The position numbers and the translations under genes were made by a program. Shown piece after piece: positions 6,575-36,653 of a stretch of 64,000 bases of DNA; position 1 is the stretch's first letter; each line of letters begins with the position of its first letter. This stretch comes from an uncultured Roseburia sp. (GTDB lineage: Bacteria; Bacillota; Clostridia; Lachnospirales; Lachnospiraceae): NCBI GenBank assembly GCA_947174805.1, contig CAMWKH010000011.1, positions 1-64,000 on the forward strand, read 5' to 3'. The notes beneath the pieces were generated by a model. It was not told the DNA's origin. It saw only the letters and a list, made by a program, of their open reading frames with translations, and searched no databases.

Positions 6575-6592
6575 TGCAGTGGGGGTAACAGC

Positions 6593-7021
6593 GTGGGTGA
6601 TGGGAAGAAACTGAAAGAGTATGTGAAAAGTAAGGGAACAAATGTGCGGAGGATTGCAAAGGCTACAGGGATTCCGGCAACCACACTGTATTCGATTATT
6701 CAGAAGGATTCCAATATCCGGATTGAGTATGCACTGCCGTTGGCCAGTGCATTGGGAGTAGATATAAACGAGATTTGTTCCAATGGGTTAGATTTGAATA
6801 CAATTCAGGAACTATCCTGTAAGTGGAAACAGAATCTGGATTCAAATGCTGTAAAAAGCTATGTGATAAATTATTTTTATCCGTTACTGCATTTGTTCGG
6901 AGAAGAAAGTATTCCGGATGTACACAAACTCCTTACTTCCTTTTATCAGCTGGATGATGAGGCAAGGGCAGAATTAGTAGAAATGGTACGGATAAAATGG
7001 AATACCACCAAGCTCACGTGA
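6593..7021 (+). CDS. XRE-family helix-turn-helix regulator
   Basis: It starts at a GTG 18 bases after the toxin gene. An N-terminal Cro/C1-type helix-turn-helix is clear (RRIAKATGIPATTLYSIIQKDSN, about 19-41, then ALPLASALGVDINEI). A helical C-terminal region of about 70 residues follows. Its closeness to the AbiE pair suggests it is co-transcribed with it or is a regulator of the defence module. It could equally be a free island regulator. Confidence 0.75.
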   Translation: MGDGKKLKEYVKSKGTNVRRIAKATGIPATTLYSIIQKDSNIRIEYALPLASALGVDINEICSNGLDLNTIQELSCKWKQNLDSNAVKSYVINYFYPLLHLFGEESIPDVHKLLTSFYQLDDEARAELVEMVRIKWNTTKLT

Positions 7022-9791: not shown

Positions 9792-10814
9792 GTGGAAAAT
9801 GATAGGATTAGAATATGTGATATTGCACAGGAACTGGGCCTTAGCACGGCAACCGTGTCAAATGTGATACATGGAAAGACAAAGAAAGTTTCCGATGAAA
9901 CGGTAAAGCGGGTGCAGGAACTTTTAGAAAAAAGGGCTTATATCCCCAGCAGGGCAGAAATTCTGCTGGCGCAGAACGATTCTAAAATGATAGGAATCGT
10001 GGTCAATGACCACGAAAAATACGAGGGGCATGTTCTGGAGGATGGTTTTATCTCTTCCGCCATAAATGCGTTGTCCAGAGAAATTGACAGGGCAGGATAT
10101 TTTATGATGGTAAAAGTTACATCCCAGTGGGAGGATATTGTCCGTTTTGCATCTATGTGGAATATGGAGGGGCTGGTTCTTATGGGTTTTTGTGAGCAGG
10201 ACTGCAAAAAGCTGCGGGAAAATATGCATATTCCTTTTGTGGTATATGACGGTTATTTTGAAGAAACGGAAAAAATCTGCAATCTCACCATAGACAATCA
10301 GGACGGGGGATATCAGGTTGGTCAATACTTAAGTCATATGGGACATAAGAATGTTCTCTGCATTTCGGATAATTGTATCTGTATGGATTTGGAACGTATG
10401 GAAGGATGCAGAAAGGCTCTAAAGCCTGAGGCTGTGGGATTTATGGAGATACCAATGCAGCTGGAGAAAAGAAAAATTTTTTATATGGAAAATTTAAGTG
10501 AAATTTTAGAGTACACGGCTGTTTTTGCTGTTTCCGATTTTTATGCTGTTGAATTGATACATTTTTTAAAAGATAAAGGTTACAACGTCCCTGAGGATAT
10601 TTCTGTGGTGGGCTTTGATGATAATGTGCTTTGCCGCTATAGCAGTCCAGCACTTACCACTGTGAGACAGGATGCAGAAATGAGGGCGGGATATGCCATT
10701 TCCATTCTTCAAAACTTAAAAAAGGGCACGGAGCACCGCTTTACTGTGAAGCTTCCTGTTTTCCTTGTGGAGCGAGACAGTGTGAAAAATTTGAATGAGG
10801 GAGAGAGAATATGA
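9792..10814 (+). CDS. LacI-family transcriptional regulator
   Basis: It starts at a GTG with AAGGAG about 10 bases upstream. Residues 6-27 (ICDIAQELGLSTATVSNVIHG) are the canonical LacI helix-turn-helix with hinge. The rest is a periplasmic-binding-protein-like sensor (MIGIVVNDHE at 66, EDISVVGFDDN near 268, SPALTTVRQD). 340 residues is the normal length. Its last bases overlap the start of the MATE exporter gene, so it probably controls that gene, perhaps derepressing it when a small ligand binds. The ligand is unknown. Confidence 0.9.
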   Translation: MENDRIRICDIAQELGLSTATVSNVIHGKTKKVSDETVKRVQELLEKRAYIPSRAEILLAQNDSKMIGIVVNDHEKYEGHVLEDGFISSAINALSREIDRAGYFMMVKVTSQWEDIVRFASMWNMEGLVLMGFCEQDCKKLRENMHIPFVVYDGYFEETEKICNLTIDNQDGGYQVGQYLSHMGHKNVLCISDNCICMDLERMEGCRKALKPEAVGFMEIPMQLEKRKIFYMENLSEILEYTAVFAVSDFYAVELIHFLKDKGYNVPEDISVVGFDDNVLCRYSSPALTTVRQDAEMRAGYAISILQNLKKGTEHRFTVKLPVFLVERDSVKNLNEGERI

Positions 10815-19457: not shown

Positions 19458-20075
19458 ATGAAAAAAATTTTTGTACATGGTTCCGGCCATACAGAAACCA
19501 GTTGGAACGAAACAATCTCATATATGAAACACAAGGAAGATATACTGTGTCCCAATTTATCGTCCATTCTTAATGGAAAAGAAGCATCCTATGCCAATTT
19601 ATATGCATCATTTACAGAATATTGTAATAACACAGACGGGCAAATTCATTTATGCGGAATTTCCTTGGGCGGAATCTTGGCGTTAAATTATGCATTGGAC
19701 TTTCCTGACAAGGTAAAATCATTAGTTTTAATCGGTACACCCCACAAAGTGCCGAGAGTAATGTTTGGTATCCAAAATATTATTTTCAGATTTTTACCAA
19801 AATCAGTTTTTAAAACTATGGCATTTGACAAAAAGGATACGTTTCTTTTGGGAAATTCTATGAAAAATTTGGATTTTGGCAATAGCGTGCAGGACATAAA
19901 ATGTCAAACACTGATTATCTGCGGAAAAAAGGACAGTGCAAATTTAAAATCAGCCTACTTTTTATCGGAACATATGGAAAATGCCAAAAAAGTAATTATG
20001 GAAGACACCGGTCATGTTGTAAATGAAGAAAATCCAAAGATGTTAGCAAAAATATTAGATAAATATTTTTCGTGA
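19458..20075 (+). CDS. Alpha/beta fold hydrolase
   Basis: 205 residues with FVHGSGHTETSW near 5 (oxyanion region), the nucleophile elbow CGISLGGILALNYAL near 61, an acid in IICGKKDSAN near 155 and the catalytic histidine in DTGHVVNEENP near 180. It is cytoplasmic, without a signal peptide. ACAGGAGGATGAA precedes the start. AT-rich codon use sets it apart from the preceding DUF1002 gene. Substrate unknown. Confidence 0.85.
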   Translation: MKKIFVHGSGHTETSWNETISYMKHKEDILCPNLSSILNGKEASYANLYASFTEYCNNTDGQIHLCGISLGGILALNYALDFPDKVKSLVLIGTPHKVPRVMFGIQNIIFRFLPKSVFKTMAFDKKDTFLLGNSMKNLDFGNSVQDIKCQTLIICGKKDSANLKSAYFLSEHMENAKKVIMEDTGHVVNEENPKMLAKILDKYFS

Positions 20076-20192
20076 TTTTGTTTCCTTTATCATAGAATGT
20101 AATGCCTATTAGGAAGATATCATACAGGGGAAACGATAAGGGAAAGAGTACTTGAAAGTTGCGGGAGAAGGCTGCGGAGGAGTAGTAACAAT

Positions 20193-20639
20193 ATGAAAAT
20201 TAGAAAAGCCATAATAAATGATTTATCGAGAGTAGCTGAAATATATGTATTCAATAACAGAATAAATTATTTTCCCATATTTAAAGACGAGGAGTTTTCT
20301 TTTGGTGAGTTACAAGTTGTTTCCCTAGTGGATAATTATTTGAAAAGGGATGAAATACGAAGAAACATCTATGTATTTGATGATGGATTAATAAAGGGTT
20401 TTCTTCAAATGAATGAAACAGAGATTTGTAAATTGTATGTGGATGCATGTTTTCAAAGTAAAGGAATTGGCAATGAACTCATCGAATATGCGGTGAAAGA
20501 ACTTCATGCCAAGCATTTATGGGCATTAGAAAAAAATATAAGGGCAATTTCATTTTATCAAAGGCATGGTTTTCATCTGACAGGTGAGAAAAAGTTTGAA
20601 GAAGATACAACAGAATATCTTGTCAAATTAGAAAGATAA
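20193..20639 (+). CDS. GNAT-family N-acetyltransferase
   Basis: 148 residues. The start MKIRKAIINDLSRVAEIYV and the acetyl-CoA loop CKLYVDACFQSKGIGNELIEYAVKEL near 86-111, followed by ALEKNIRAISFYQRHGFH, are classic GNAT motifs. It transfers an acetyl group from acetyl-CoA to an amine; the acceptor cannot be told. It lies before the metG leader in the same direction. Confidence 0.88.
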   Translation: MKIRKAIINDLSRVAEIYVFNNRINYFPIFKDEEFSFGELQVVSLVDNYLKRDEIRRNIYVFDDGLIKGFLQMNETEICKLYVDACFQSKGIGNELIEYAVKELHAKHLWALEKNIRAISFYQRHGFHLTGEKKFEEDTTEYLVKLER

Positions 20640-20754
20640 TTTTCTATTGTATCATCACATCATTTTTGCAGTATATTCGGAAATTTGGCGGGATGAATGA
20701 TTTGAAAAATAATTGTTGACACATAGATAAATCTGTTGTAGGATAAAAAATGTA

Positions 20755-21048
20755 TATATCAAAGGCGATGAAGAGAAGAGTAAGTAGTTAGATATGTTAC
20801 AGAGAACCTGATTAGGTGAGAACAGGCGCAAAAGGAACTACTGAAAATGGTCTCGGAGCTGCGTACCGAAGCTGTTATGCCAAGGCTGCGACGGGTGCAC
20901 CCGTTATAGTGATAGACTATCGATGAATCATTTCTCGTCCGTAGTTGATAAGGCTTGTATCGTGAGATATAAGTGAATTTAGGGTGGTAACACGAAGCGG
21001 ATGCTCTCGTCCCTGAAAAAGAAATTTTTCAGAGAGGAGGGCTTTTTT
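20755..21048 (+). promoter_or_regulatory. T-box leader (tRNA-Met-responsive) of metG
   Basis: Stem I features GATGAAGAGAAGAGTAAG and AGGTGAGAACAGG are visible. A specifier ATG sits at 20847-20849 in the loop sequence GAAAATGGTC. The T-box motif AGGGTGGTAACACG lies at 20981-20994. A terminator hairpin follows (stem around GAAAAAGAAATTTTTC, 21003-21042) with six Ts. Uncharged tRNA-Met should pair with the ATG specifier and the T-box to prevent termination and turn on the synthetase. The specifier agrees with the gene downstream. This leader explains the gap before metG. Confidence 0.92.
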
Positions 21049-21126
21049 AGTACAGAAAAATATGTCGTAACCCACATAAGAAACAAAGTTATCACTGTAA
21101 ATTTAAGAAGAAATGAGGTATGTAAA

Positions 21127-22755
21127 ATGAGACAAATTTTAATTGGAGGTGCATGGCCATATGCAAATGGTTCCTTGCATATAGGACATATTGCAGGATT
21201 ATTACCGGGAGATGTATTGGCAAGATATCATAGAGCAATCGGAGATAAGGTGTATTTTGTTTCGGGAAGTGATTGCCATGGTACTCCTGTGGCCATCAGA
21301 GCAAAACAAGAAAACAGGACACCGCAAGAGGTCAGCGACTTTTATCATAGAGAGTTTGTGGAGTGCTTTGAGCATTTAGGATTTAGTTATGACGCCTATA
21401 TTAAAACATCTGCAAATGAGCATAAAGATTTTGTGAGGGAGTTTCACAGGAAATTGTATGAAAGCCCATATGTGTACGAAAAAGAAGTTCCCCAGGCATA
21501 TTGTGAAAGGTGTAAGACTTTCCTGGCAGACCGTTTTGTATTAGGAAAATGCCCTAAATGCGGAAGTGATACCAGAGGTGATCAATGTGATTCTTGTGGT
21601 ACAGTTTTAGAACCTGAAACGCTTATAGAACCTAAATGTGCTGTATGTGGAAAGAGGATTGGTTTTAAAAACTCTACCCACTTATACATTGCTGTTTCAA
21701 AGCTGCAGTCAGAGTTAGAAGCGCTGGTTGAAAACCATCCTGAGTGGCGAAAAAATGCTACTGCATTTACAAATCGATATATTAACGATGGATTAAGAGA
21801 CCGGGCATTAACTAGAGATTTACAATGGGGAATTAACGTACCTAAGGAAGGGTATGAAAACAAAACAATCTATATTTGGGCAGAAAATGTATTAGGTTAT
21901 CTGTCAGCAAGCAGAGTGGCTGCCGGAGAAGATGTCAATGCTTTTTTTGAGTTATGGGGGGAAGATGCCAAGCATTATTATGTACATGGAAAAGATAATA
22001 TTCCATTTCATACTATTATATTACCGGCACTTTTGCTGGGAAATGGAGATGGATGGCATTTGCCAGACCAAATTGTGTCCAGTGAATATTTAACTTTGGA
22101 GGGCAGGAAAATATCTACCAGTCAAAATTATGCAATATGGGTAAAAGATTTATTAGATAATTTTGAAGCCGACTCTATTCGATATTTTTTTATTGCAAAT
22201 GGACCTGAGAAAAAGGATGCGGATTTTTCCTGGAGAGAATATGTGCATAGTCATAACGGCGAGCTGCTTGGAGCATACGGAAATTTTGTGAACCGAACAT
22301 TGGCATTTATTGAGAAATATTGTGATGGAGTTGTTCCCCAAGGAATCAATAACATAGATTTAGACCATCAAATAGACTGCCTTTATATTGGGGTGGGAAA
22401 ACTTATTGAAAGTGGATGTTTTAAAGATGCAATGAATGAGATTTTTGAGTTTGTAAGAAATGCAAACAAGTATTTTGATACAGAACAACCCTGGATTACA
22501 CGAAATACGGATAAAACTGCTTGTGATAATACACTTTATCAATGTGTCCAGATGATAGCAAATCTAGCAGTTTTGCTCTCTCCTTTTTTACCATTTTCTT
22601 CGGAAAAGGTTTTGAAATGGTTGAATATAAGTAATAAGTGGGAAAGACAACATGTTACAAGTGGATATCTGCTTCCAGAGATTCTAATATTGTTTCAGAG
22701 AATTGATAAAAAAGTAATCCAAGAGGAAACAGAGAAATTAAAGGCTATTTTATAA
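21127..22755 (+). CDS. metG: Methionyl-tRNA synthetase
   Basis: The ATG at 21127 is the true start; the in-frame ATG at 21001 lies inside the T-box terminator. The 542-residue class I enzyme has LHIGH at 17-21, paired CxxC zinc knuckles (CERC, CPKCG, CDSCG, CAVCG, about 123-180) and GRKISTSQN as the KMSKS variant near 333. It charges tRNA-Met with methionine. There is no C-terminal tRNA-binding (EMAP) domain. KISTS and four-Cys knuckles place it in the archaeal/E. coli-like MetRS group. It could be a second MetRS copy, since many Firmicutes carry a different MetS. Confidence 0.92.
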   Translation: MRQILIGGAWPYANGSLHIGHIAGLLPGDVLARYHRAIGDKVYFVSGSDCHGTPVAIRAKQENRTPQEVSDFYHREFVECFEHLGFSYDAYIKTSANEHKDFVREFHRKLYESPYVYEKEVPQAYCERCKTFLADRFVLGKCPKCGSDTRGDQCDSCGTVLEPETLIEPKCAVCGKRIGFKNSTHLYIAVSKLQSELEALVENHPEWRKNATAFTNRYINDGLRDRALTRDLQWGINVPKEGYENKTIYIWAENVLGYLSASRVAAGEDVNAFFELWGEDAKHYYVHGKDNIPFHTIILPALLLGNGDGWHLPDQIVSSEYLTLEGRKISTSQNYAIWVKDLLDNFEADSIRYFFIANGPEKKDADFSWREYVHSHNGELLGAYGNFVNRTLAFIEKYCDGVVPQGINNIDLDHQIDCLYIGVGKLIESGCFKDAMNEIFEFVRNANKYFDTEQPWITRNTDKTACDNTLYQCVQMIANLAVLLSPFLPFSSEKVLKWLNISNKWERQHVTSGYLLPEILILFQRIDKKVIQEETEKLKAIL

Positions 22756-22803
22756 AACAGCTGTTACGCATTACAGATTTGTGGCATTTATGGAGGTTAG
22801 GAA

Positions 22804-23286
22804 ATGTATATTACACAGGCAAAGACAAATGATATCCTTGAGATATTACAAATATATAAAATTGCACGTGATTTTATGAAGAAAACCGGAAATGCCGAAC
22901 AATGGAAAAATCATTATCCGGCAAAAGAAATCCTTGAAGAAGATATAAATTCAGGAAATTTATATGTAGTAAAAAACAAGGATGCAATATGCGCCGTTTT
23001 TGCTTTTATTGTTGGAAAAGAACCTACTTATGAAAAAATAACGCAAGGCCATTGGCTGTCAGATACGGAATATGGCACTTTACACCGTGTGGCCGGGGAT
23101 GGTACGATACATGGCATTTTCGATATGGTGTTAAGGTTTTGCACTGAGAAAACAAAACATTTGCGCATTGATACACATAGTGAAAATAAAATAATGCAGC
23201 ATCTTATCCTTAAAAACAATTTTCAAGAATGTGGCATAATTTATGTTGCGGATGGCTCACCAAGAATAGCATATGAAAGATTATAG
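22804..23286 (+). CDS. GNAT-family N-acetyltransferase
   Basis: 160 residues with MYITQAKTNDILEILQIYKIARDFM at the start and the NAT pattern RIDTHSENKIMQHLILKNNFQECGIIYV near 121-148. The acetyl-CoA loop is less canonical than in the gene at 20193. GGAGGTTAGGAA precedes the ATG. It lies 48 bases after metG and could be carried on the same T-box-controlled transcript. Substrate unknown. Confidence 0.8.
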   Translation: MYITQAKTNDILEILQIYKIARDFMKKTGNAEQWKNHYPAKEILEEDINSGNLYVVKNKDAICAVFAFIVGKEPTYEKITQGHWLSDTEYGTLHRVAGDGTIHGIFDMVLRFCTEKTKHLRIDTHSENKIMQHLILKNNFQECGIIYVADGSPRIAYERL

Positions 23287-23374
23287 AATATGGAGGATTG
23301 CACTATAACTGAATAGCCAAGGAACAAATCAATAACATAGGCACTGGCTCCCGGCTTGTAAAATCAGGAGGTTT

Positions 23375-23792
23375 ATGGTAGTATGGAGATACGGCAAGCA
23401 TAGAACTGGTATTGCAGATTGTACTGGAAAAGCCGGATTTAAAGGTGCTGGACGTCCGCACACAGGTATTTGTGGAGAACTTGCTGAACCGTTCGGTAAG
23501 GTTTGATATCCTGGCTACGGACAGTATGGGGGCAAAACTGAATGTGGAGGTACAGCGCTCCGATAAAGGAGCCGGGAGAAAAAGAGCAAGATATAACAGC
23601 AGCATGATGGACGCAAATCTTTTGAGGAAAGGCGAGGACTTCGACAAACTGCCGGAAACGTGGGTAATCTTTATCGCAGAGAATGACGTAATGGGAAAAG
23701 GGCTGCCGCTCTATTCAATCGAGAGGTGCTTTTTAGGAACAGGGGAAAGATTTGAGGAAGTCAAACAACTGAAAGCTGATAGAAGTGCATAG
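23375..23792 (+). pseudogene. Remnant of a Rpn-family (PD-(D/E)XK) recombination-promoting nuclease/transposase
   Basis: An ATG at 23375 with AGGAGG upstream starts a frame that must shift by one base to reach YGDTASIELVLQIVLEKPDLKVLDVRTQ. RFDILATDSMGAKLNVEVQRSD then provides the D..ExQ nuclease core, followed by PETWVIFIAENDVMGKGLPLYSIER. The family normally continues with an FEDGxHIIYVN segment; here the frame diverges after GERFE and stops. It is truncated at both ends and has a frameshift. Such remnants are common genomic debris in this group. Confidence 0.7.
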
Positions 23793-23969: not shown

Positions 23970-24037
23970 TCTCTAATTCTCTCCATGTTTCATCTGGAAT
24001 CTTTAAGGTAGAAAAATCTCCGGGGATACTTTACAAT
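23970..24037 (+). promoter_or_regulatory. Promoter A of the glycan locus with putative activator site
   Basis: A TAGAAA -35 at 24009-24014 and TACAAT -10 at 24032-24037 are spaced 17 bases, and the block 23970-24016 abuts or overlaps the -35. The same block and spacing recur at 26287-26354 with 38 of 47 bases identical and no gaps. Two poor -35 boxes with a conserved upstream block are typical of activator-dependent promoters. The regulator is not in the window. Confidence 0.6.
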
Positions 24038-24070
24038 AGAGATAACAGATTTTTGAAAGGAGAGGCGAAA

Positions 24071-26107
24071 ATGATTGAAAATGAAAAAGTGAAAAAAGTT
24101 TTGTACGGCGGGGATTACAATCCGGAGCAGTGGCCGGAAGAAATCTGGGAGGAGGATATGCGGCTCTTTTCACTGGCAGGCATTGATGTGGTAACGCTAA
24201 ATGTGTTTAGCTGGGCAGCGTTGCAGAGGGATGAAATCACCTATGATTTTTCTAAGCTTGACAAGATTATGGGGCTTGTAAAGAAAAACGGTCTTAACGT
24301 CTGCCTTGCCACCTCAACAGGCGCCCACCCGGCGTGGATGGCCAGAAAGTACCCGGACATTTTAAGGACGGACAATATGGGAATTAAGCGGAAGTTCGGA
24401 GCACGCCACAATTCCTGTCCCAACAGCCCCACTTACCGGAAATATTCCGTGGCATTGGCGGAAAGGCTTTCACAGCGTTATAAGGACTATGACAATATTG
24501 TATCCTGGCACATTTCAAACGAGTACGGCGGGGAGTGCTACTGTGAAAACTGTGAGAAGGCGTTTCGGGTGTGGCTTCGGAAAAAATACGGCACCATAGA
24601 GGAGTTAAACCGTGTGTGGAATACCAGTTTCTGGGGGCATACGTTTTACGACTGGGAGGATGTGGTACTGCCGGATATGCGTTCCGAGGAGTTTTCCTGG
24701 AACGGGGTGCAGAAAACAAATTTTCAGGGAATTTCCCTGGATTATAAGCGGTTTAACTCCGACAGTATTTTAGAGTGTTTTAAATTGGAGCGGGATGCGG
24801 TGAAAAAACACACCCCACAGATTCCTGTCACCACAAATCTTATGGGATGCTACCAGCCTCTGGACTATCAGAAGTGGGGGAAAGAAATGGATTTTGTCTC
24901 CTGGGACAGCTACCCTATATTCGGGGCGGAATACAGCCATAACGCCATGTACCATGATGTGATGCGGGGCGTAAAACAGGGGAAACCCTTTGCCTTAATG
25001 GAGCAGACTCCAAGTGTGAGCAACTGGCATGCCTATTGCGCCTTAAAGCGCCCCGGCGTGATGCGGCTTTTAAGCTACCAGGCTATGGCCCACGGAGGGG
25101 ACACGGTGATGTTTTTCCAGATGAGAAGAAGTATCGGTGCCTGTGAAAAGTATCACGGGGCAGTCATTGACCATGTGGGAACGGAACATACCAGAGTATT
25201 TCGGGAGATTTCTGCATTAGGGAAAGAGTTAAAAGATTTGGGGGATAAAACCCTGGGTGGGAGAACGCCTGCAAAGGCGGCCATTGTCTTTGACTGGGAC
25301 AACTGGTGGGCGACAAGTCTTTCCGCAGGGCCAAGTGACGCCATGGACTATTTTGGAGAAGTGTATCAGTATTACCGCACCCTTTTGAAAATGCATATCC
25401 CTGTGGATATGATTGGAGTGGAGGACAGTCTTTCGGATTACAAGATTTTGGTTGCCCCCATGCTCTATATGTGCAAAGATGGATTTGACGAAAAAATCCG
25501 CAGCTTCGTGAAAGACGGGGGCACATTTGTGACTACTTATTTCAGCGGCTATGTGGAGGACCACGATTTAGTGATTACCGGGGGTTATCCCGGGCGGCTT
25601 CGGGATATTCTTGGAATCTGGGTGGAGGAATCCGATGCCATTCCACCGGAAAAAACATGGCATACTTTCCACTATGAACATGAAACATATCCCGCAGAAA
25701 TCCTCTGTGACCTTCTCCATTTGGAGGGAGCGGAAAGCCTGGGAGAGTATGACAATGATTTTTATGCGGGGATGCCGGCGGTGACAGTGCATGGATTTGG
25801 CAAAGGGAAGGCGTATTATGTGGCTGCCCGTTCCAGTGAGACTTTTTACAATAAATTTTTTGACCGGATTTTAAAAGAGCAGGGCGTGGAACCTGTGGTC
25901 ACAGGAGAGTTTGAAACCTGCATAGAAGCCACTGTCAGGGAAAATGAAAAGGGCAGTTTTCTGTTTCTATTAAACCACGGGGAGAGCGTGGGCTCCGTGA
26001 CCTTAAAGCAGGGGGGTACGGACCTTCTCTCCGGCAGGGAGTATGGGCCGGGGGCGGAGGTTTCCCTGGAGGCAAAAGGAGTGGCCTTGATACAGTTAAA
26101 ACATTGA
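24071..26107 (+). CDS. GH42 beta-galactosidase
   Basis: The ATG at 24071 (AAAGGAGAGGCG upstream) is preferred to the TTG at 24053. The 678-residue protein starts VLYGGDYNPEQWPEEIWEEDM, the GH42 signature. WHISNEYGGECYCENC holds the acid/base Glu and a metal-binding Cys cluster. FALMEQTPSVSNW holds the nucleophile Glu near 310. Trimerisation and C-terminal beta domains follow. It has no signal peptide and removes terminal beta-galactose in the cytoplasm. Beside GH31 alpha-xylosidase and GH3 beta-glucosidase it fits stripping of galactosylated xyloglucan oligosaccharides. Confidence 0.93.
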   Translation: MIENEKVKKVLYGGDYNPEQWPEEIWEEDMRLFSLAGIDVVTLNVFSWAALQRDEITYDFSKLDKIMGLVKKNGLNVCLATSTGAHPAWMARKYPDILRTDNMGIKRKFGARHNSCPNSPTYRKYSVALAERLSQRYKDYDNIVSWHISNEYGGECYCENCEKAFRVWLRKKYGTIEELNRVWNTSFWGHTFYDWEDVVLPDMRSEEFSWNGVQKTNFQGISLDYKRFNSDSILECFKLERDAVKKHTPQIPVTTNLMGCYQPLDYQKWGKEMDFVSWDSYPIFGAEYSHNAMYHDVMRGVKQGKPFALMEQTPSVSNWHAYCALKRPGVMRLLSYQAMAHGGDTVMFFQMRRSIGACEKYHGAVIDHVGTEHTRVFREISALGKELKDLGDKTLGGRTPAKAAIVFDWDNWWATSLSAGPSDAMDYFGEVYQYYRTLLKMHIPVDMIGVEDSLSDYKILVAPMLYMCKDGFDEKIRSFVKDGGTFVTTYFSGYVEDHDLVITGGYPGRLRDILGIWVEESDAIPPEKTWHTFHYEHETYPAEILCDLLHLEGAESLGEYDNDFYAGMPAVTVHGFGKGKAYYVAARSSETFYNKFFDRILKEQGVEPVVTGEFETCIEATVRENEKGSFLFLLNHGESVGSVTLKQGGTDLLSGREYGPGAEVSLEAKGVALIQLKH

Positions 26108-26136
26108 CATTATTCCAAATGAGAAAGTGAGAATAC

Positions 26137-26262
26137 ATGATTCCAAGAAAAGAAAAGGAGATTTTAACAGAAATAGACCGGGTCATAGAGAACGGCCCCT
26201 TTTGTCCGGACTGGGGAACTGATTATAAATTATCGGCCAAAGCTTTTGTAGGTTGTCCTTGA
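26137..26262 (+). pseudogene. N-terminal remnant of a GH29 alpha-L-fucosidase
   Basis: The 41-codon frame MIPRKEKEILTEIDRVIENG then PFCPDW resembles the start of Lachnospiraceae GH29 fucosidases, where the same leader runs into 'YxxxWESL...PxWyxxAKFGIFIHWG'. Here it stops at 26260-26262 without the catalytic domain. Only about 26 residues are comparable, so this rests on family memory, not alignment. If right, the locus once removed fucose as well. It lies immediately before promoter B, so the deletion may have brought promoter B close to GH42. Confidence 0.45.
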
Positions 26263-26286
26263 TCAGTGTCATCATATGTTCCTCTT

Positions 26287-26354
26287 TCTCTAATTTTCCC
26301 GGTGTTTCATCTTTAATATTTATAGTAGAAAAAATGCATCTGACAGCCTATAAT
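26287..26354 (+). promoter_or_regulatory. Promoter B of the glycan locus with putative activator site
   Basis: TAGAAA at 26326-26331 and a perfect TATAAT at 26349-26354 are spaced 17 bases. The upstream block is a gapless match to promoter A at a constant offset of 2317 bases. It should drive the GH31, GH3, kinase and isomerase genes. Confidence 0.65.
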
Positions 26355-26390: not shown

Positions 26391-28727
26391 ATGATTTTTG
26401 GAAACGGATGTTGGCTGCAGAGAGAAGGGTGTGAGTGCTTTGCGCCACAGCAGGTGTATTTTGTGAAAAAAGAGGACAAAAAAGTGACAATTCTTGCCCC
26501 AACGGCCCGGATTTCCCACAGGGGGGACACATTGGGGGGGATTAACCTTACACTGGAGATTACTTCCCCTGCACCGGAAGTGCTTCGGGTACGTACCTGC
26601 CATCACGCTGGGGTAAAAAATCCCGGGCCGGAATTTGAACTTTCCCTGGGGGAGGAAATTTTGGATGTGACGGAAAATGATGAGGAAATCTGTGTAAGAA
26701 GCGGGAGTCTTTCCCTTGTCATTACAAAAGATACATTTAGTATGACATATCTTCGGGACGGGGAAGTGATTACAAAGAGCAGCGGCAGAGACTTGGGTTA
26801 TATGAAAACAGACTGGAAGGGGTTTGCCTACGATAAGGGCGGGAATGCCTATATGCGCCAGGAACTTTCCCTGTCAGTGGGGGAGATGGTTTACGGCATG
26901 GGAGAGCGTTTTACTGCCTTTGCCAAAAACGGCCAGAGCGTGGATATCTGGAACGAGGACGGAGGTACAAGCACCTACCAGTCCTATAAAAACGTTCCCT
27001 TTTATATTACCAATAAAGGTTACGGCGTGTTTGTAAACCACCCGGAGAAGGTATCTTTTGAGATAGGCACAGAGCATGTCTCAAAGGCGGAGTTTTCCGT
27101 TCCCGGGGAGAGCCTTGACTATTTCCTGATTAACGGGCCTTCCATGAAAGAAGTCTTAATGCGCTACACGGATTTGACAGGAAAACCCTCCCTGCCTCCC
27201 CAGTGGACCTTTGGGCTTTGGCTTTCCACCTCCTTCACCACAAACTATGACGAAGAGACGGTGATGAGTTTTATTGACGGCATGGAGGAGCGGGGGATTC
27301 CCCTACAGGTATTCCACTTTGACTGTTTCTGGATGAAGGAGTTCCACTGGAGCGATTTTGTGTGGGACAGCCGGGTATTCCCCGACCCAAAGGGTATGTT
27401 AAAGCGCATCAAAGACAAAGGATTAAAAGTCTGCGTGTGGATTAACTCCTACATTGGCCAGGAGTCGGATATTTTTGCAGAAGGAATGGAAAAGGGCTAT
27501 TTTGTAAAAAGGACAAACGGGGATGTGTGGCAGTGGGATATGTGGCAGCCCGGCATGGCCCTTGTGGACTTTACTAACCCCGATGCCTGTAAATGGTTCC
27601 AGGAGAAGCTGGAAGTTCTTTTGGATATGGGTGTGGACTGCTTTAAAACCGATTTCGGGGAGAGGATTCCTGTGGAGGACGTGGTGTATTTCGACGGTTA
27701 CGACCCCATGAAAATGCACAATTACTATACTTATCTTTACAATAAAACCGTATATGAGCTTTTGGAGAGAAAAAGAGGAAAAGGGGAGGCTGTGCTTTTT
27801 GCACGTTCCGCCACCGCAGGGGGACAGAAATTTCCGGTACACTGGGGCGGGGACTGCTGGTCAAATTATGAGGCAATGTCGGAGAGCATAAGAGGAGGCC
27901 TGTCCCTCACCATGTCCGGCTTCGGTTACTGGAGCCATGATATCGGGGGATTTGAGGCCACATCCACGGCGGATGTGTACAAGCGCTGGGCGGCATTCGG
28001 GCTTTTGTCCACCCACAGCAGGTTCCACGGAAGCAATTCTTACCGGGTGCCCTGGGCCTATGATGATGAGGCGGTGGATGTGGTGAGGTTCTTTACCAAG
28101 TTAAAGCTGTCCCTTCTGCCTTACCTTTACAGCAGCGCAGCAGCCACAGCAAAAACCGGGATTCCCATGATGCGCAGCATGGTCTTAGAGTACGAGAGAG
28201 ACCCCATCTGCGCTTATCTGGACAGACAGTACATGCTAGGAGACAACCTGTTGGTAGCCCCCATCTTTAACGATAAGGGCCAGGCATCCTACTATCTTCC
28301 CAAAGGAACCTGGACAAATTATTTTACCGGGGAGAAAGTCACTGGAAATGTGTGGAGGGAAGAGCACCATGGCTATCAGTCCATTCCGCTTATGGTGCGG
28401 GAAAACAGCATTATCCCCACCAACACAAATATCACCCGCGCCGCAGATTCCTACAGTGAGGGGCTGGAGCTTCGGGTTTACCAGGTAACAGACAGGGCAT
28501 CCACCGTTGTGCTTGAGGGGGGAAAATCTGTGCTGATGCTTACCATTGTAAAAGATTTTGAGAAAAATACCTTAGTCTGCAAGACACAGGCGGACCATCC
28601 TTACACCCTGCGCTTTGTAGGTGTCAGCCTGAAAGCAGTTACGGGAGGAAAACTTACGGTACAGGGTAATGACAGCATTGTCACAGTGGAAAATACAAAG
28701 GCAGAGATTGTCTGCCATTTGGCATAA
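26391..28727 (+). CDS. yicI: GH31 alpha-xylosidase (YicI-like)
   Basis: The ATG at 26391 with GGAGG eight bases upstream is chosen; the long frame before it covers the promoter. The 778-residue protein has the GH31 nucleophile in VDCFKTDFGERIP (near 418) and the acid/base Asp in PVHWGGDCWSNYEAM (near 485), the YicI-type signature of alpha-xylosidases. It releases alpha-xylose from isoprimeverose-like xyloglucan fragments in the cytoplasm. The next gene follows after 28 bases, forming one operon with GH3, kinase and isomerase. Confidence 0.9.
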   Translation: MIFGNGCWLQREGCECFAPQQVYFVKKEDKKVTILAPTARISHRGDTLGGINLTLEITSPAPEVLRVRTCHHAGVKNPGPEFELSLGEEILDVTENDEEICVRSGSLSLVITKDTFSMTYLRDGEVITKSSGRDLGYMKTDWKGFAYDKGGNAYMRQELSLSVGEMVYGMGERFTAFAKNGQSVDIWNEDGGTSTYQSYKNVPFYITNKGYGVFVNHPEKVSFEIGTEHVSKAEFSVPGESLDYFLINGPSMKEVLMRYTDLTGKPSLPPQWTFGLWLSTSFTTNYDEETVMSFIDGMEERGIPLQVFHFDCFWMKEFHWSDFVWDSRVFPDPKGMLKRIKDKGLKVCVWINSYIGQESDIFAEGMEKGYFVKRTNGDVWQWDMWQPGMALVDFTNPDACKWFQEKLEVLLDMGVDCFKTDFGERIPVEDVVYFDGYDPMKMHNYYTYLYNKTVYELLERKRGKGEAVLFARSATAGGQKFPVHWGGDCWSNYEAMSESIRGGLSLTMSGFGYWSHDIGGFEATSTADVYKRWAAFGLLSTHSRFHGSNSYRVPWAYDDEAVDVVRFFTKLKLSLLPYLYSSAAATAKTGIPMMRSMVLEYERDPICAYLDRQYMLGDNLLVAPIFNDKGQASYYLPKGTWTNYFTGEKVTGNVWREEHHGYQSIPLMVRENSIIPTNTNITRAADSYSEGLELRVYQVTDRASTVVLEGGKSVLMLTIVKDFEKNTLVCKTQADHPYTLRFVGVSLKAVTGGKLTVQGNDSIVTVENTKAEIVCHLA

Positions 28728-28755: not shown

Positions 28756-30795
28756 ATGGAGCCAAAAGAGATATTGGAGAAGCTTACCTTAGAGGAAAAA
28801 ATCGGCATGATACACGGGGCGGAGCTATTTGCCACCGCAGGGGTGAAACGCCTGAATATACCGCCCCTTATTATGTCCGACGGCCCTATGGGGGTGAGAA
28901 ACGAGTTTGAACCGGCCAACTGGAAACCCATAGGACTTACAGATGATTATGTCACATATCTTCCCTGCAACAGCGCCCTGGCAGCCACATGGAACAGGAA
29001 ACTTGCCTGTGACACAGGAAGTGTTTTGGGGGAGGAGGCCAGGGGAAGGGGAAAAGACATTATCCTTGCCCCCGGGGTCAATATAAAGAGAAGTCCCCTC
29101 TGCGGCAGGAATTTTGAATATTTCAGTGAAGACCCTTATCTCACAAAGGAGATGGCAGTTCCCTATATACAGGGGGTGCAGTCCTTTGACGTGGCGGCCT
29201 GCGTCAAGCATTTTGCCGCAAACAACCAGGAGACGGAGCGGTTAAATGTGGAAGTGGAGATTGAGGAAAAGGCCCTTCGGGAAATTTATCTCCCCGCCTT
29301 TTATGACGCCGTGAAAAAGGCTGGAAGCTACACCATAATGGGGGCTTACAACCGTCTGTACGGGGAACACTGCTGCGAGAGCGATTTTCTCTTAAATAAG
29401 ATTTTGCGGGAAGAGTGGCAGTATGACGGTGTGGTAATCTCAGACTGGGGAGGCGTCCATGATACAAAAAAAGCCGCCAATTCCCAGCTTGATATCGAAA
29501 TGTCAGTCACCTATGATTTTGACAATTACTGTATGGCAGAACCTTTGAAAGAGAAGGTGGAATCCGGGGAAATTGAGGAGAGCGTTATTGATGAGAAAGT
29601 TCTTCGGATTCTTCATTTAATGAAAAAACTACATATGTTTGACGGCAGACGGAAAACCGGTGTTTACAACACCCCGGGGCACAGAAAGGCAGCCCTTCAC
29701 GTGGCAAGGGAATCTATTGTCCTTTTAAAGAATAATGACCAAGCCCTTCCCCTTAAAAAGGAAGGATTAAAGAAAGTTCTTATAATAGGGGAAAATGCCC
29801 AGTGCATCCACTCAAACGGCGGGGGAAGTGCGGAAATCAAAGCACTTTACGAAATCTCACCTCTTATGGGAATCAAAACCCATCTGGGGGGCAATGTAAA
29901 AGTAGATTATGCTTTTGGTTACTGCCGGGAAGAAAAAGAAGAGGAATCGGGGCAGAACTGGCAGGAGACCAGCTTGCAAAATGGGGGAGGCTTTACTGGG
30001 AAAAATGGGGAAACTTCCCAGGAGGCGGTACTTTTAGAAAAGCGGAAAGCTTTAAAAGAAGAGGCGTTAAAACTGGCAGGAGACAAGAGTTACGATAAAG
30101 TAATTTTTGTCGGGGGATTAAACCATGACCATGACACTGAGGGAAATGACCGGGCAGATATGACCCTTCCCTATGGGCAGGATGAATTGATTACCCAGTT
30201 GCTTAAAATCCGGCCGGATATGATTGTGGTGATGATAGCAGGAAGCTCCGTGGATATGACAGCCTGGGAGAAAAAGTCCCCCACTCTGGTGTGGAGTTAC
30301 TATGCCGGGATGGAGGGGGGGAATGCCCTTGCCGACGTATTATTTGGAGACGTAAACCCTTCCGGAAAACTCCCGGAGACCTTTTATAAAAACCATCTGG
30401 ACTGTTCCGCCCACGCCTTGGGGGAATTTCCCGGGGGAAAAACCGTGGCCTATAAAGAGGGAAAATACGTGGGCTACCGCTACCATGAAAAATATCATAT
30501 GGAACCTTTATTCTCCTTTGGGCATGGATTAAGCTATACCTCCTTTGCCTACCGGAAAATGTCTGTGAAACCCGGGATGGTAAGCTGTTATGTGAAAAAT
30601 ACAGGAAAAATGCCGGGCAGCGAGACGGTTCAGGTATATCAGCTATTACAGGATGGGGCAGATGTGGTGAAAGAATTGAAGGGCTTTGAAAAAGTATACT
30701 TAAATCCCGGGGAAGAAAAAAGGGTGGAAATAAACGTAGAGGGTACAGGCCCTTACACAGTGGGCAGTTCATTGTTAGATATCAGGCTGCATTAA
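28756..30795 (+). CDS. GH3 beta-glucosidase
   Basis: 679 residues with GGAGGAGG before the ATG. The N-terminal (alpha/beta)8 domain contains IMSDGPMGVRNE, KHFAANNQE and the nucleophile Asp in VVISDWGGVHD near 233. The alpha/beta sandwich domain has VLIIGENAQ and LPYGQDELI, and a short FN3-like end follows (KNTGKMPGSETVQVY). It is cytoplasmic and would cleave the beta-glucan backbone units left after xylose and galactose removal. It overlaps no neighbour and is followed 30 bases later by the kinase. Confidence 0.92.
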   Translation: MEPKEILEKLTLEEKIGMIHGAELFATAGVKRLNIPPLIMSDGPMGVRNEFEPANWKPIGLTDDYVTYLPCNSALAATWNRKLACDTGSVLGEEARGRGKDIILAPGVNIKRSPLCGRNFEYFSEDPYLTKEMAVPYIQGVQSFDVAACVKHFAANNQETERLNVEVEIEEKALREIYLPAFYDAVKKAGSYTIMGAYNRLYGEHCCESDFLLNKILREEWQYDGVVISDWGGVHDTKKAANSQLDIEMSVTYDFDNYCMAEPLKEKVESGEIEESVIDEKVLRILHLMKKLHMFDGRRKTGVYNTPGHRKAALHVARESIVLLKNNDQALPLKKEGLKKVLIIGENAQCIHSNGGGSAEIKALYEISPLMGIKTHLGGNVKVDYAFGYCREEKEEESGQNWQETSLQNGGGFTGKNGETSQEAVLLEKRKALKEEALKLAGDKSYDKVIFVGGLNHDHDTEGNDRADMTLPYGQDELITQLLKIRPDMIVVMIAGSSVDMTAWEKKSPTLVWSYYAGMEGGNALADVLFGDVNPSGKLPETFYKNHLDCSAHALGEFPGGKTVAYKEGKYVGYRYHEKYHMEPLFSFGHGLSYTSFAYRKMSVKPGMVSCYVKNTGKMPGSETVQVYQLLQDGADVVKELKGFEKVYLNPGEEKRVEINVEGTGPYTVGSSLLDIRLH

Positions 30796-30825
30796 ATGAT
30801 GCAGGAGAAGGTAAAGGAGGTCAAA

Positions 30826-32301
30826 ATGTATTACATCGGAATCGATTTAGGCACATCAGCGGTAAAACTTCTGCTGATGGACGAAACAGGAAACATACGG
30901 AAAATCACAAACCGGGAATACCCCTTGTTTTTCCCAAAGCCCGCCTGGTCGGAGCAAAACCCTTCGGACTGGTTTTCCCAAACCATGGAGGGATTAAAGG
31001 AACTGTTATCGGAGTGTGACAAGTCAAAAGTGGCGGGGATTAGTTTTGGGGGCCAGATGCACGGCCTTGTGGCTTTAGATGAAAAGGATGAGGTAATCCG
31101 TCCCGCTATTTTGTGGAACGACAGCAGGACAACGGAGGAATGTGACTATTTAAACATAGAAATCGGGCAGAAAAAACTGGCGGAATATACAGGAAATATA
31201 TCTTTTACCGGATTTACCGCCCCAAAAGTTTTGTGGATGAAAAAAAACGAGCCGGAAAATTTTGCCCGGATTCGTAAAATTATGCTGCCCAAAGACTATC
31301 TTTGCTACAGGCTCAGCGGTGTTTTTGCCACAGACGTATCCGATGCTTCCGGAACCTTGTATTTTGATGTGAAAAACAGGACATGGTCAAAGGAAATGTG
31401 TGAGATTTTAAGCATCAGAGAGGAGTGGCTGCCGAAGGTTTACGAAAGCTATCAGGAGGTGGGAACCTTAAAACCGGAAATTGCCGGGGAACTTGGGCTT
31501 TCCCCGGAAGTAAAAATTGCAGCGGGGGCCGGAGACAATGGGGCGGCGGCCGTTGGCACCGGCACAGTGGGGAAGGGAGCTTTAAATGTGTCCCTTGGCA
31601 CCAGCGGCACGCTGTTTATCTCTTCGGACAGCTTTTGCATGGATGAAAACAACGCTCTTCATGCCTTTGCCCATGCGGACGGAAACTACCATCTCATGGG
31701 CTGTATGCTCTCCGCCGCCTCCTGCAATATGTGGTGGATGGATGAGATTATCGGCACAAAAGAGTACGGAAGGGAGCAGGAAAACATAAAAAACCTGGGG
31801 GAAAACCATGTGTATTTCCTGCCCTATTTAATGGGGGAGCGTTCCCCCCACAATGACCCATTGGCCAGAGGGACTTTTACCGGAATCACCATGGATACCA
31901 AGCGGGAGGAGATGACCCAGGCCGTTTTGGAGGGGGTGGCGTTTGCCTTAAAGGATTCTCTTGAGATAGCAAAAAAACTTGGAATCCAAGTTTCCTCTTC
32001 CAAAATCTGCGGCGGAGGAGCCAAAAGCCCCCTGTGGAAAAAAATTCTGGCAAATGTCTTAAACCTGACTTTGGAAGTGCCGGAAAACGAGGAAGGCCCC
32101 TCTATGGGAGCTGCCATGTTAGCGGCTGTGGCATGCGGTGAATATGACACAGTGGAAGAGGCGGCAAAAAGGATTTGCAAAGTAAAAGAAGTGATAAAAC
32201 CGGAAGAAACACTTGTGGAAAAGTACAAAAAGCAATATGATAAGTTTAAGGAAATTTATCCTGCATTAAAACCGGTATTTCAAAAACTATGGGAGGATTA
32301 A
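30826..32301 (+). CDS. xylB: FGGY-family xylulokinase
   Basis: The ATG at 30826 has AAAGGAGG five bases upstream and gives the FGGY start MYYIGIDLGTSAVKLLLMDE; the ATG at 30796 is rejected. The 491-residue protein has GISFGGQMHGLV near 74, DASGTLYFDV near 178, and ICGGGAKSPLWKKILANVL near 394, the XylB pattern. It phosphorylates D-xylulose, or possibly a related ketose, with ATP. No XylA is present here, so its substrate must come from the adjacent isomerase or from one encoded elsewhere. Confidence 0.87.
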   Translation: MYYIGIDLGTSAVKLLLMDETGNIRKITNREYPLFFPKPAWSEQNPSDWFSQTMEGLKELLSECDKSKVAGISFGGQMHGLVALDEKDEVIRPAILWNDSRTTEECDYLNIEIGQKKLAEYTGNISFTGFTAPKVLWMKKNEPENFARIRKIMLPKDYLCYRLSGVFATDVSDASGTLYFDVKNRTWSKEMCEILSIREEWLPKVYESYQEVGTLKPEIAGELGLSPEVKIAAGAGDNGAAAVGTGTVGKGALNVSLGTSGTLFISSDSFCMDENNALHAFAHADGNYHLMGCMLSAASCNMWWMDEIIGTKEYGREQENIKNLGENHVYFLPYLMGERSPHNDPLARGTFTGITMDTKREEMTQAVLEGVAFALKDSLEIAKKLGIQVSSSKICGGGAKSPLWKKILANVLNLTLEVPENEEGPSMGAAMLAAVACGEYDTVEEAAKRICKVKEVIKPEETLVEKYKKQYDKFKEIYPALKPVFQKLWED

Positions 32302-32304
32302 AAA

Positions 32305-33780
32305 ATGAACAACATGCCAAAAGAAAAAATCGGAATCGTAGCAGTCAGCCGTGACTGTTTTCCCATGAGCCTTTCGGAGAACAGGAGAAAAGCCGTGGTG
32401 AAGGCTTATCAGGACAAGTACGGGGAGATTTATGAATGTCCTGTGTGTGTGGAAAATGAGCTTCACATGAAAAATGCCCTGGCAGATGTAAAAAAAGCAG
32501 GCTGTAATGCCCTGGTGGTATACCTGGGGAACTTTGGCCCGGAGACGGAGGAGACTCTTTTGGTCAAAGAATTTGACGGGCCTGCCATGGTCATTGCTGC
32601 GGCGGAGGAAACCGGGGATAACCTGGTACAGGGCAGGGGGGATGCCTACTGCGGCGTTTTAAACGCAAGCTACAATTTAAAACTGAGAAACTTAAAAGCC
32701 TACATACCGGAGTATCCCGTGGGAACGGCACAGGAATGCGCAGAAATGATTTCTGAATTTGCCCCCATCGCAAGGGCCGTTATCGGATTAAACAGTTTAA
32801 AAATCATATCCTTCGGCCCTCGCCCCCAGAATTTCCTGGCCTGCAACGCCCCCATCAAGCAGCTTTACAATCTGGGTGTGGAAATTGAGGAAAACTCTGA
32901 GCTGGATTTATTTGAAAGCTTTAACAACCATGCCGGAGATGAGAGGATTCCAGGTGTTGTGGCGGATATGGAAAAGGAACTTGGGGCAGGAAATAAAAAG
33001 CCTGAGATTTTAAGCAAACTGGCTCAGTATGAGATTACTCTTTTAGACTGGGTAGAGGGACACAAGGGAAGCAGGGAGTTTGTGGCCATTGCGGGAAAAT
33101 GCTGGCCGGCTTTCCAGACCCAGTTCGGCTTTGTGCCCTGTTATGTGAACAGCCGCCTGACTAAAATGGGAATCCCCGTCTCCTGTGAAGTTGATATTTA
33201 CGGCGCATTAAGCGAATTTATCGGAACAGTGGTAAGCCAGGATGCCGTAACCCTTTTGGATATCAACAATTCTGTCCCGGCGGATATGTATGATGCGGAG
33301 ATCAAGGGGAAACATGATTATACCTTAAAAGATACCTTTATGGGATTCCACTGTGGAAACACAGCTTCCAGCAAGCTCTCTTTCTGTGAGATGAAGTATC
33401 AGCTTATTATGGCAAGAACCCTTCCCCAGGAAGTAACCCAGGGAACTTTAGAGGGGGATATTGCGCCGGGGGATATCACTTTCTACCGTCTCCAGAGCAC
33501 CGCAGATGCCAAAATCCGGGCCTATATCGCCCAGGGAGAAGTTCTGCCTGTGGCAACCCGCTCCTTTGGGGCAATCGGCGTGTTTGCCATTCCCCAGATG
33601 GGAAGGTTTTACCGCCATGTGTTGATTGAAAAGAATTATCCCCACCACGGGGCCGTGGCTTTTGGGCACTTTGGAAAAACTCTGTTTGAAGTGTTTAAAT
33701 ATATCGGGGTATCTGTGGAGGAGATTGATTTTAACAGGCCGAAGGACATGATGTATCCTACGGAGAATCCCTTTGTATAA
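32305..33780 (+). CDS. L-fucose/L-arabinose isomerase-family protein
   Basis: 491 residues, four bases after the kinase stop, so co-translated. Sequences IGIVAVSRDCFPMSL, VYLGNFGPETEET, CEVDIYGALSEFIGTVVSQD, FHCGNTASSKL and PHHGAVAFGHFGKTLFEVFKYIGV are typical of the fucI/araA superfamily, which interconverts aldose and ketose with a divalent metal. It is shorter than true FucI (about 590 aa). With a xylulokinase next door it may isomerise xylose, arabinose or fucose; the pairing is unusual and the substrate is open. Confidence 0.8.
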   Translation: MNNMPKEKIGIVAVSRDCFPMSLSENRRKAVVKAYQDKYGEIYECPVCVENELHMKNALADVKKAGCNALVVYLGNFGPETEETLLVKEFDGPAMVIAAAEETGDNLVQGRGDAYCGVLNASYNLKLRNLKAYIPEYPVGTAQECAEMISEFAPIARAVIGLNSLKIISFGPRPQNFLACNAPIKQLYNLGVEIEENSELDLFESFNNHAGDERIPGVVADMEKELGAGNKKPEILSKLAQYEITLLDWVEGHKGSREFVAIAGKCWPAFQTQFGFVPCYVNSRLTKMGIPVSCEVDIYGALSEFIGTVVSQDAVTLLDINNSVPADMYDAEIKGKHDYTLKDTFMGFHCGNTASSKLSFCEMKYQLIMARTLPQEVTQGTLEGDIAPGDITFYRLQSTADAKIRAYIAQGEVLPVATRSFGAIGVFAIPQMGRFYRHVLIEKNYPHHGAVAFGHFGKTLFEVFKYIGVSVEEIDFNRPKDMMYPTENPFV

Positions 33781-34996: not shown

Positions 34997-36250
34997 TTAC
35001 AAATATTTAAACAAATTGGTTATATTTTTATGCTCCTGGTTTCCATAAAAAAGCCGGATTTTCTTATCCTCCGAATTTCTTTCATAAAGGCAGGAATATC
35101 CCCCGCCTGCAAAGCCGGGAAGTTTCACAAATCCTCCAAAAACAATATAGATTTGCCCTTCTGCATGGTTTTCCCATAAAAAATTTTCAAAGGCGTTTTT
35201 ATCTACATAAACATAGTTGTTGTCATAGGAAATCATCTCCTGCAAGGCGCTGCTGTCATCAAAAAAGGTAACGCCGCCGTTATCACAGCCGTATACCAGG
35301 ATTCTTTCATCTTCCGTGTATCGGCCATAGGAAATATTATGTATCTTTAAAACTGCCGCTGTTACACACACCATAGCAAAAGTCAGCGCAAGTGCTGCCC
35401 AAACCCGTTTATATGGTCTATATCCTGCAATCTTTGTCACCCGCTGCCGGAGGCTTTTGTACGCTTTATCCCCTGCAAAAGCGGCATACATATTGAAATT
35501 TTCATTTTCTGCCTGTAAAATCCGCATACTTTTCAGTAAGAGACGGCCGTATTCGTATGCTTTCCACCCACTCCGTTGAATGGTTACGAAGTCGCAGATT
35601 TCTTCCATGTCCTCCCGGAAATATTTTGTGCCGATGGTAAGAAACGGGTTAAGCCACAACAAAGTCCTTAGTATATCCCACAAAAGGTAAAACAGTAAAT
35701 GCCCCAGGCGGATATGTGTTTTTTCATGGCGCAGGATGGTCTGTAATTCTTCCCTGCTGTATTCTTTTAATATGATTTCCGGAATGACGATTTTATGCCG
35801 GAACACTCCCATGGTGGAGGGGGTCACAGGCATTTTTGTAACATAGATAACTGTATCCCATACCTTTCTTTTTTCCATGCCTGCAAGGGATTTTTTCAGT
35901 TTTCGCCTTCTGTAAAACAGCAGGGCGGCATATGCGGACACACCCCATACATACAACCAGCATATCCATATATGGTTCCTGCAGGTCACCGTCCAGGAGG
36001 TAAACAGTTTTACACCTGTATTGTTTTCATAAAAAAAATGCAATCTTCCCATAAAGAGAACAGGTATAAATAAACTCCATACTGCGCCTTTTAAAAACAC
36101 CCTGTTTTTCAGCACCGTTTTTCGCAAAGTAAAAACAATGGCACATACCGGAAAAGAAAGCAGCACACACCTTAAAAGCTGTATGACATAATAGAGGGCG
36201 CAAACATTTAACAGGCCAATTCCACTATCCCAAAATTCCTGTACCGTCAT
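34997..36250 (-). CDS. BlaR1/MecR1-like M56 membrane metallopeptidase
   Basis: 417 residues with N-terminal and internal membrane helices (FPVCAIVFTL, AVWSLFIPVLFMG, WICWLYVWGVSAYAALLFY, LLFYLLWDILRTLLWL) and the zinc motif HEKTH (HExxH) in LRHEKTHIRLGHLL near 180. A last helix near 285 leads to a 100-residue external sensor region. There is no penicillin-binding domain, so it senses something other than beta-lactams or uses another module. In the BlaR1 scheme the protease is activated by signal and inactivates the BlaI-type repressor. The 5' end overlaps the repressor gene by 26 bases. Confidence 0.85.
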   Translation of the reverse strand: MTVQEFWDSGIGLLNVCALYYVIQLLRCVLLSFPVCAIVFTLRKTVLKNRVFLKGAVWSLFIPVLFMGRLHFFYENNTGVKLFTSWTVTCRNHIWICWLYVWGVSAYAALLFYRRRKLKKSLAGMEKRKVWDTVIYVTKMPVTPSTMGVFRHKIVIPEIILKEYSREELQTILRHEKTHIRLGHLLFYLLWDILRTLLWLNPFLTIGTKYFREDMEEICDFVTIQRSGWKAYEYGRLLLKSMRILQAENENFNMYAAFAGDKAYKSLRQRVTKIAGYRPYKRVWAALALTFAMVCVTAAVLKIHNISYGRYTEDERILVYGCDNGGVTFFDDSSALQEMISYDNNYVYVDKNAFENFLWENHAEGQIYIVFGGFVKLPGFAGGGYSCLYERNSEDKKIRLFYGNQEHKNITNLFKYL

Positions 36251-36653
36251 GATTCTGATGCTCCTTTTCCCTGCATTGCTCCAAAATTTCTTCTAATTCC
36301 CGGAATTGCTCCTCCGTTAAATCTGCACTTTGCAGCAATGCCGCCATTGCGTTTTTCCTGCTGCCCTCAAAATAGCTGTCTACAAACTTCCTGCTCTTTT
36401 CCTTTTGACATTCCTCTTTTGATTTTTGCACAGAATAGTGGTAAACCCTTAAATCATGTTCATCTACGGTATAGCTTAAAACGCCCTTCTGCCATAAACG
36501 GTTTAGCAGGACACGCACCATCCTGGGCGACATATCTGACTTATCCTTTATTTTGCTTATGACTTCCTTTGCAGTCATAGAAGGCGTATCATTTGCCCAG
36601 AATACTTCCATAATCAGCCATTCGCTTTGGCTGGGAGTAGTTTCTTTTTCCAT
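36225..36653 (-). CDS. BlaI/MecI-family repressor
   Basis: 142 residues with the winged-helix pattern SQSEWLIMEVFWANDTPSMTAKEVISKIKDKSDMSPRMVRVLLNRLWQKGVLSYTVD at 8-64, diagnostic of the family, and a helical dimerisation end. It overlaps the M56 gene in the same transcript. The likely targets are its own promoter and genes for wall stress response; no beta-lactamase gene is adjacent. Confidence 0.9.
   Translation of the reverse strand: MEKETTPSQSEWLIMEVFWANDTPSMTAKEVISKIKDKSDMSPRMVRVLLNRLWQKGVLSYTVDEHDLRVYHYSVQKSKEECQKEKSRKFVDSYFEGSRKNAMAALLQSADLTEEQFRELEEILEQCREKEHQNHDGTGILG

Follow-up and report, generated by a model that had tools for sequence, protein, structure and literature searches.

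Twin predicted operators of a XygR-type response regulator, probably orphaned, in a Roseburia xyloglucan locus

Two promoter blocks in a glycan locus of an uncultured Roseburia sp. are very probably class II (araBAD-like) operators for a response regulator of the YesN/XygR type, and probably orphaned in this genome. Judged by their sequence, they belong to a known kind, the predicted operators of AraC-type response regulators for xyloglucan use. The direct basis for this reading is sequence, spacing, repeat structure, co-occurrence, synteny and the finding of no orthologues in the assembly, from which we infer binding, activation, the inducer and the loss of function. Throughout, the window is the whole stretch of DNA analysed, 64,000 nucleotides in length.

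Results

Two matching blocks before the GH42 and GH31 genes

The features of the locus are as follows; operators are predicted and half-site positions approximate.

9792-10814, LacI-family protein, syntenic in Roseburia sp. 1XD42-69 (G001) and Roseburia sp. NALB_7861_20 (G007)
23412-23792, plus strand, fragment of a PD-(D/E)XK family transposase (PF12784), just 5' of block A
23970-24016, plus strand, predicted operator block A, before GH42; half-site 1 about 23972-23987, half-site 2 about 23995-24011
24032-24037, plus strand, -10 box TACAAT of the GH42 promoter
24074-26107, plus strand, GH42 beta-galactosidase (Pfam PF02449, E 1e-144)
26137-26248, plus strand, remnant of a GH29 alpha-L-fucosidase, between GH42 and block B (tblastn)
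26287-26333, plus strand, predicted operator block B, before the GH31 operon; half-site 1 about 26289-26304, half-site 2 about 26312-26328
26349-26354, plus strand, -10 box TATAAT of the GH31 promoter
26391-28727, plus strand, GH31 alpha-xylosidase (YicI equivalog), operon gene 1 (NCBIfam NF007940, 1214 bits, cut-off 606)
28756-30795, plus strand, GH3 glycosidase (beta-glucosidase type)
30796-32301, plus strand, xylulokinase XylB (TIGR01312, above cut-off)
32305-33780, plus strand, protein with an L-fucose isomerase C-terminal domain, sugar isomerase-like (PF02952)

As a preliminary description of this DNA had claimed, the two blocks agree without gaps at 38 of 47 positions; when the 400-bp regions around both were mononucleotide-shuffled 60 times and the best ungapped 47-mer was counted, the top match was 29 (mean 25.6, SD 0.9). 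The equal distance from the blocks to TACAAT and TATAAT, claimed there as well, is exact, and matches to Pfam, NCBIfam and TIGR models agree with the genes named downstream, GH42 behind block A and a GH31-GH3-kinase-isomerase operon behind block B. A scan with the block as a motif, proposed as a check at the time, yields these two as the sole copies: there are no others in the window, nor in the whole 3.1-Mb assembly at three mismatches or fewer. A 70-position sequence model, which has both window blocks among its building sequences, gives them E-values of 2e-11 and 3e-10, the next best hit in this genome standing at 0.1.

Several neighbouring gene groups may be recorded here. Directly after the xyloglucan operon, Pfam matches identify a BlaR1-type M56 peptidase and BlaI-type repressor pair (34997-36653); further on (38716-59212), integrase-like and resolvase genes flank DNA methyltransferase genes and a conjugation-type ATPase-like gene, and this stretch is probably an integrated mobile element. 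At 5798-7021 a nucleotidyltransferase-like gene is followed by an HTH gene, possibly a toxin-antitoxin pair of the AbiEii type, as judged by eye only.

Anatomy of the motif

The motif consists of two half-sites in direct orientation with a 23-bp period: its self-similarity is 0.19 at this offset, against 0.06 at the next offset and 0.12 for the best inverted repeat. The half-sites approximate the consensus CTAATTNTTANGGTR (half-site 1) and NAATTTTTANGGTA (half-site 2), or, in the consensus drawn up for the anatomy, about TCTAATNNTTANNGTR and TNNAATTTTTACGGTA; block A lacks the G at motif column 16, which is almost invariant elsewhere. The downstream end of half-site 2 lies about 21 bp from the -10 box, so that this half-site covers the -35 region, and the spacing from GTA to the -10 box is fixed at 24 bases across motif sites. 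The -35 hexamer itself is poor, with columns 43-45 unconserved. The shared TAGAAA that had been described as the -35 of both promoters does recur at genus-level sites, but it is restricted to them and is no conserved -35; more distant relatives retain only TA(T) in this region, as part of half-site 2. Direct half-sites, the downstream one lying over the -35 region, a fixed distance to the -10 box and a poor -35 are together the features of a class II AraC-type site.

At one locus (L149:7738-7860), divergent GH31 and sensor-kinase genes share one overlapping operator region, which has motif matches on both strands and a near-palindromic half-site, CTCTAATTTTTAGAG.

A response regulator beside the block in close relatives

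Among 15 genomes of the genus, the block is carried by the window genome, G001 and G007 only. In G001 it stands before GH42 and before a GH13-GH31-GH3 operon, the GH13 alpha-glucosidase-like gene lying between block and GH31 (L010:5191-6765); in G007 it stands before GH31-GH3, GH42 is without a block, and the importer site precedes lplB. In both relatives, a response regulator of 517-519 residues is divergently encoded beside the block (L019/L008 in G001, L009 in G007), opposite GH42 in the former and GH31 in the latter. The two proteins, 80% identical, consist of a receiver domain (Response_reg) and an AraC HTH domain, and their gene has a promoter of its own, TTGACA-17-TATAAT; in the other genomes of the genus the regulator was not found, the best match being about 30% identical. 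This architecture marks a two-component response regulator of the YesN/XygR type, as opposed to a classical AraC protein. The earlier guess of an AraC-type activator was right about the DNA-binding domain, and the search for AraC-type regulators near other block sites, suggested together with it, leads directly to this gene, which adjoins the block in both relatives. The spacing, the direct repeat and the divergent regulator gene beside the block also support the proposal that a single activator, encoded outside the window, would serve both promoters.

The blocks pair by gene across genomes, the window's GH42 block with the GH42 promoter of G001 and its GH31 block with the GH31 promoter of G007; block B is identical to the G007 block at 44 of 47 positions, and the spacer behind it has diverged. 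Since both blocks have a counterpart before the corresponding gene of a relative, the twin blocks predate these species, and a recent duplication of one promoter is ruled out by the fact that these same-gene matches lie in different relatives.

The same pairing bears on the condition that the preliminary description had set for its own refutation, namely that the blocks might be leftovers of a duplicated protein-coding region on the minus strand. That strand is indeed open and similar within the genus (FSTLKIPDETWRELE, FSTINIKDETPGKLE), but 15 of 29 sites have a stop in this frame and no reading frame is kept across relatives; moreover, a coding origin predicts neither the fixed distance to the -10 box nor the 23-bp repeat, and the pair of blocks is older than the species compared. 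We consider this origin scarcely credible and reject it.

Survey of the family and beyond

At least 36 of the 397 Lachnospiraceae genomes surveyed have an orthologue of the regulator, a lower bound because three candidates were scored per genome; these orthologues sit amid genes for GH31, GH42, GH29, GH3, XylB, an isomerase and an LplBC-type importer. A 47-bp matrix built from five genus sites proved too stringent and missed most distant sites; a shorter matrix served better, and then a 70-bp matrix that includes the -10 box, with which 3.5 million positions were scanned. Sites found with the 70-bp matrix lie before GH31, GH42, GH3, GH43, importer or substrate-binding-protein genes in loci linked to the regulator. 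The two best distant sites reach 49-60 bits, both having been part of the matrix; further distant sites score 9-22 bits, and permuted or reversed control matrices give 13 bits at most.

A sequence-only profile made from 22 sites was run on all 397 genomes. Among the genomes outside the profile, the regulator is present in 11 of 18 with the motif (E<=1e-3), against 16 of 369 without it (Fisher p 5e-10), and 8 of the 11 motif sites share a contig with the regulator, at a distance of about 10 kb or less. Held-out sites precede GH31, GH42, GH3 or importer genes in G256, G263, G175, G183 and G334, and likewise in G074, G383, G179, G059 and G346. Matches with E-values of 4e-4 to 1e-3 in G214, G252, G034 and G271 have no fitting neighbour and were taken as chance; some loci also hold weak motif matches without a known target. 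In G110 a match (L236:7556) precedes a glycanase-like secreted protein; if this site is real, a secreted depolymerase would join the same regulon.

Outside the family, six loci from two other families encode regulators that are 31-35% identical, one of them 56%, with both HTH units well conserved. The top-scoring site stands before GH31 in all six, and in the four with the order GH31-GH3-sensor-regulator-GH42 the second-best site stands before divergent importer genes (lplB).

This distribution also bears on a repressor reading, in which the blocks would be operators for a protein such as the LacI-family member at 9792-10814. Its gene keeps its place in both relatives, but the motif is a direct repeat and not a palindrome (0.19 at offset 23 against 0.12 inverted), it lies upstream of and over the -35 region and not over the start, and across families it tracks the AraC-type response regulator; we regard a LacI-type operator as very unlikely and, with neither palindrome nor association, exclude it as a candidate.

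Absence of regulator, sensor and importer from the window genome

No orthologue of the regulator was found in the assembly (best match 29% identity), nor of the sensor (best 33%) or the substrate-binding protein (best 36%). A cognate regulator in the same genome is therefore missing from the sequence at hand, and its absence is likely real, the assembly being 92% complete. In G001 and G007 a run of LacI, MATE, RecJ, MCP, hydrolase and DUF1002 genes leads into the sensor and importer genes; in the window the same run from LacI to DUF1002 is sequenced, but different genes follow, and then block A. Between the DUF1002 gene and GH42 (19458-23792) these are an alpha/beta hydrolase, a GNAT-like protein, methionyl-tRNA synthetase and the transposase fragment, the last a sign of rearrangement at the point where the relatives hold sensor, importer or regulator genes. 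Because the syntenic slot is sequenced and filled by other genes, the absence is unlikely to be a mere assembly gap.

What the window genome retains is GH42, GH31, GH3, xylB and both operators. GH29 is a remnant, whose pieces correspond, in differing frames, to residues 1-28 and 224-239 of an intact relative; the intact gene follows GH42 in G001 (L008/L019). With the sensor, the regulator, the importer and a working GH29 gone while enzymes and operators stay, the operators are probably orphaned. The reading we prefer is that sensing and import were lost recently and the operators stayed behind; the strong conservation of block B relative to G007 speaks against an old loss.

The same conservation, together with the rank of the window blocks among the best motif matches, is what would be expected if the operators were still read here, either by the true regulator, hidden in the unassembled 8%, or by another, paralogous response regulator now acting in its place. 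A candidate for the latter is a response regulator of 382 residues on contig C4, with a DNA-binding domain 43% identical and NSAYLG in the first HTH unit, much like that of motif-bearing relatives; however, nothing comparable to the motif lies near it, the best match being E 1.6 at C4:16549. The sequence moreover covers every slot that holds regulator, sensor or importer in the relatives, and none of the three is there; the sensor and the substrate-binding protein are absent along with the regulator. Continued reading of the operators is thus a possibility that we hold to be doubtful. A rewired circuit, in which selection has kept the operators and another response regulator drives the enzymes for sugars from a different importer, seems improbable.

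Discussion

The favoured reading, operators of a XygR-type regulator that the window genome has probably lost, implies a mechanism in the relatives that retain the system. Xyloglucan oligosaccharide, imported or extracellular, would be perceived by a YesM/XygS-type sensor kinase, which would then phosphorylate the response regulator; the phosphorylated regulator would bind both half-sites and bring RNA polymerase to promoters whose -35 is poor, and GH42, GH31-GH3 and the ABC importer would be switched on jointly. Several traits of a XygR-type operator are found: a regulator with receiver and AraC HTH is linked to the motif in relatives, the genes downstream of the sites encode cytoplasmic enzymes for xyloglucan oligosaccharides, namely GH31 (YicI equivalog), GH42, GH3 and GH29, and an LplBC-type importer, and the motif occurs at loci of XygSR order beyond the family.

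In araBAD, the direct-repeat site of AraC (araI) overlaps the -35 region of an activator-dependent promoter and has a repeat period of 21 bp. The block differs from araI in its period of 23 bp and in half-site sequence. It shares direct or tandem repeats upstream with AraC/XylS-type class II sites, both at araBAD (araI1-I2) and in Caldicellulosiruptor bescii, where two-component regulators have predicted tandem-repeat sites upstream of promoter elements (PMC8579813).

The closest known counterpart is XygS/XygR of Ruminiclostridium cellulolyticum, whose gene cluster is described in PMC4780118 and which, in the secondary account of PMC8576529 (citing Kampik et al., 2020), positively regulates enzymes, importer and itself. 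The likeness extends to a regulator with receiver and AraC-type domains and to a sensor beside GH31 alpha-xylosidase, GH3 beta-glucosidase, GH42 beta-galactosidase and a divergent ABC importer; the order GH31-GH3-sensor-regulator-GH42 recurs in the four other-family loci, which have the motif at both divergent promoters. The window genome differs in retaining enzyme genes and operators only. XydS/XydR of the same species, Clostridium (Ruminiclostridium) cellulolyticum, binds upstream of its targets and has repeats near -35 boxes (PMC3572039); it has the protein architecture of the block-linked regulator, and its targets are other genes, those of CBM6-containing hemicellulases.

For two-component activators of the xyloglucan type in Clostridia of the gut and elsewhere, the block provides a precise, searchable predicted operator motif, with which the regulon (enzymes, importer and sometimes secreted glucanases) can be predicted from sequence data. 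The window genome offers a natural case in which a set of operators has seemingly outlived its regulator and importer, and which would be suited to tests of decay and rewiring.
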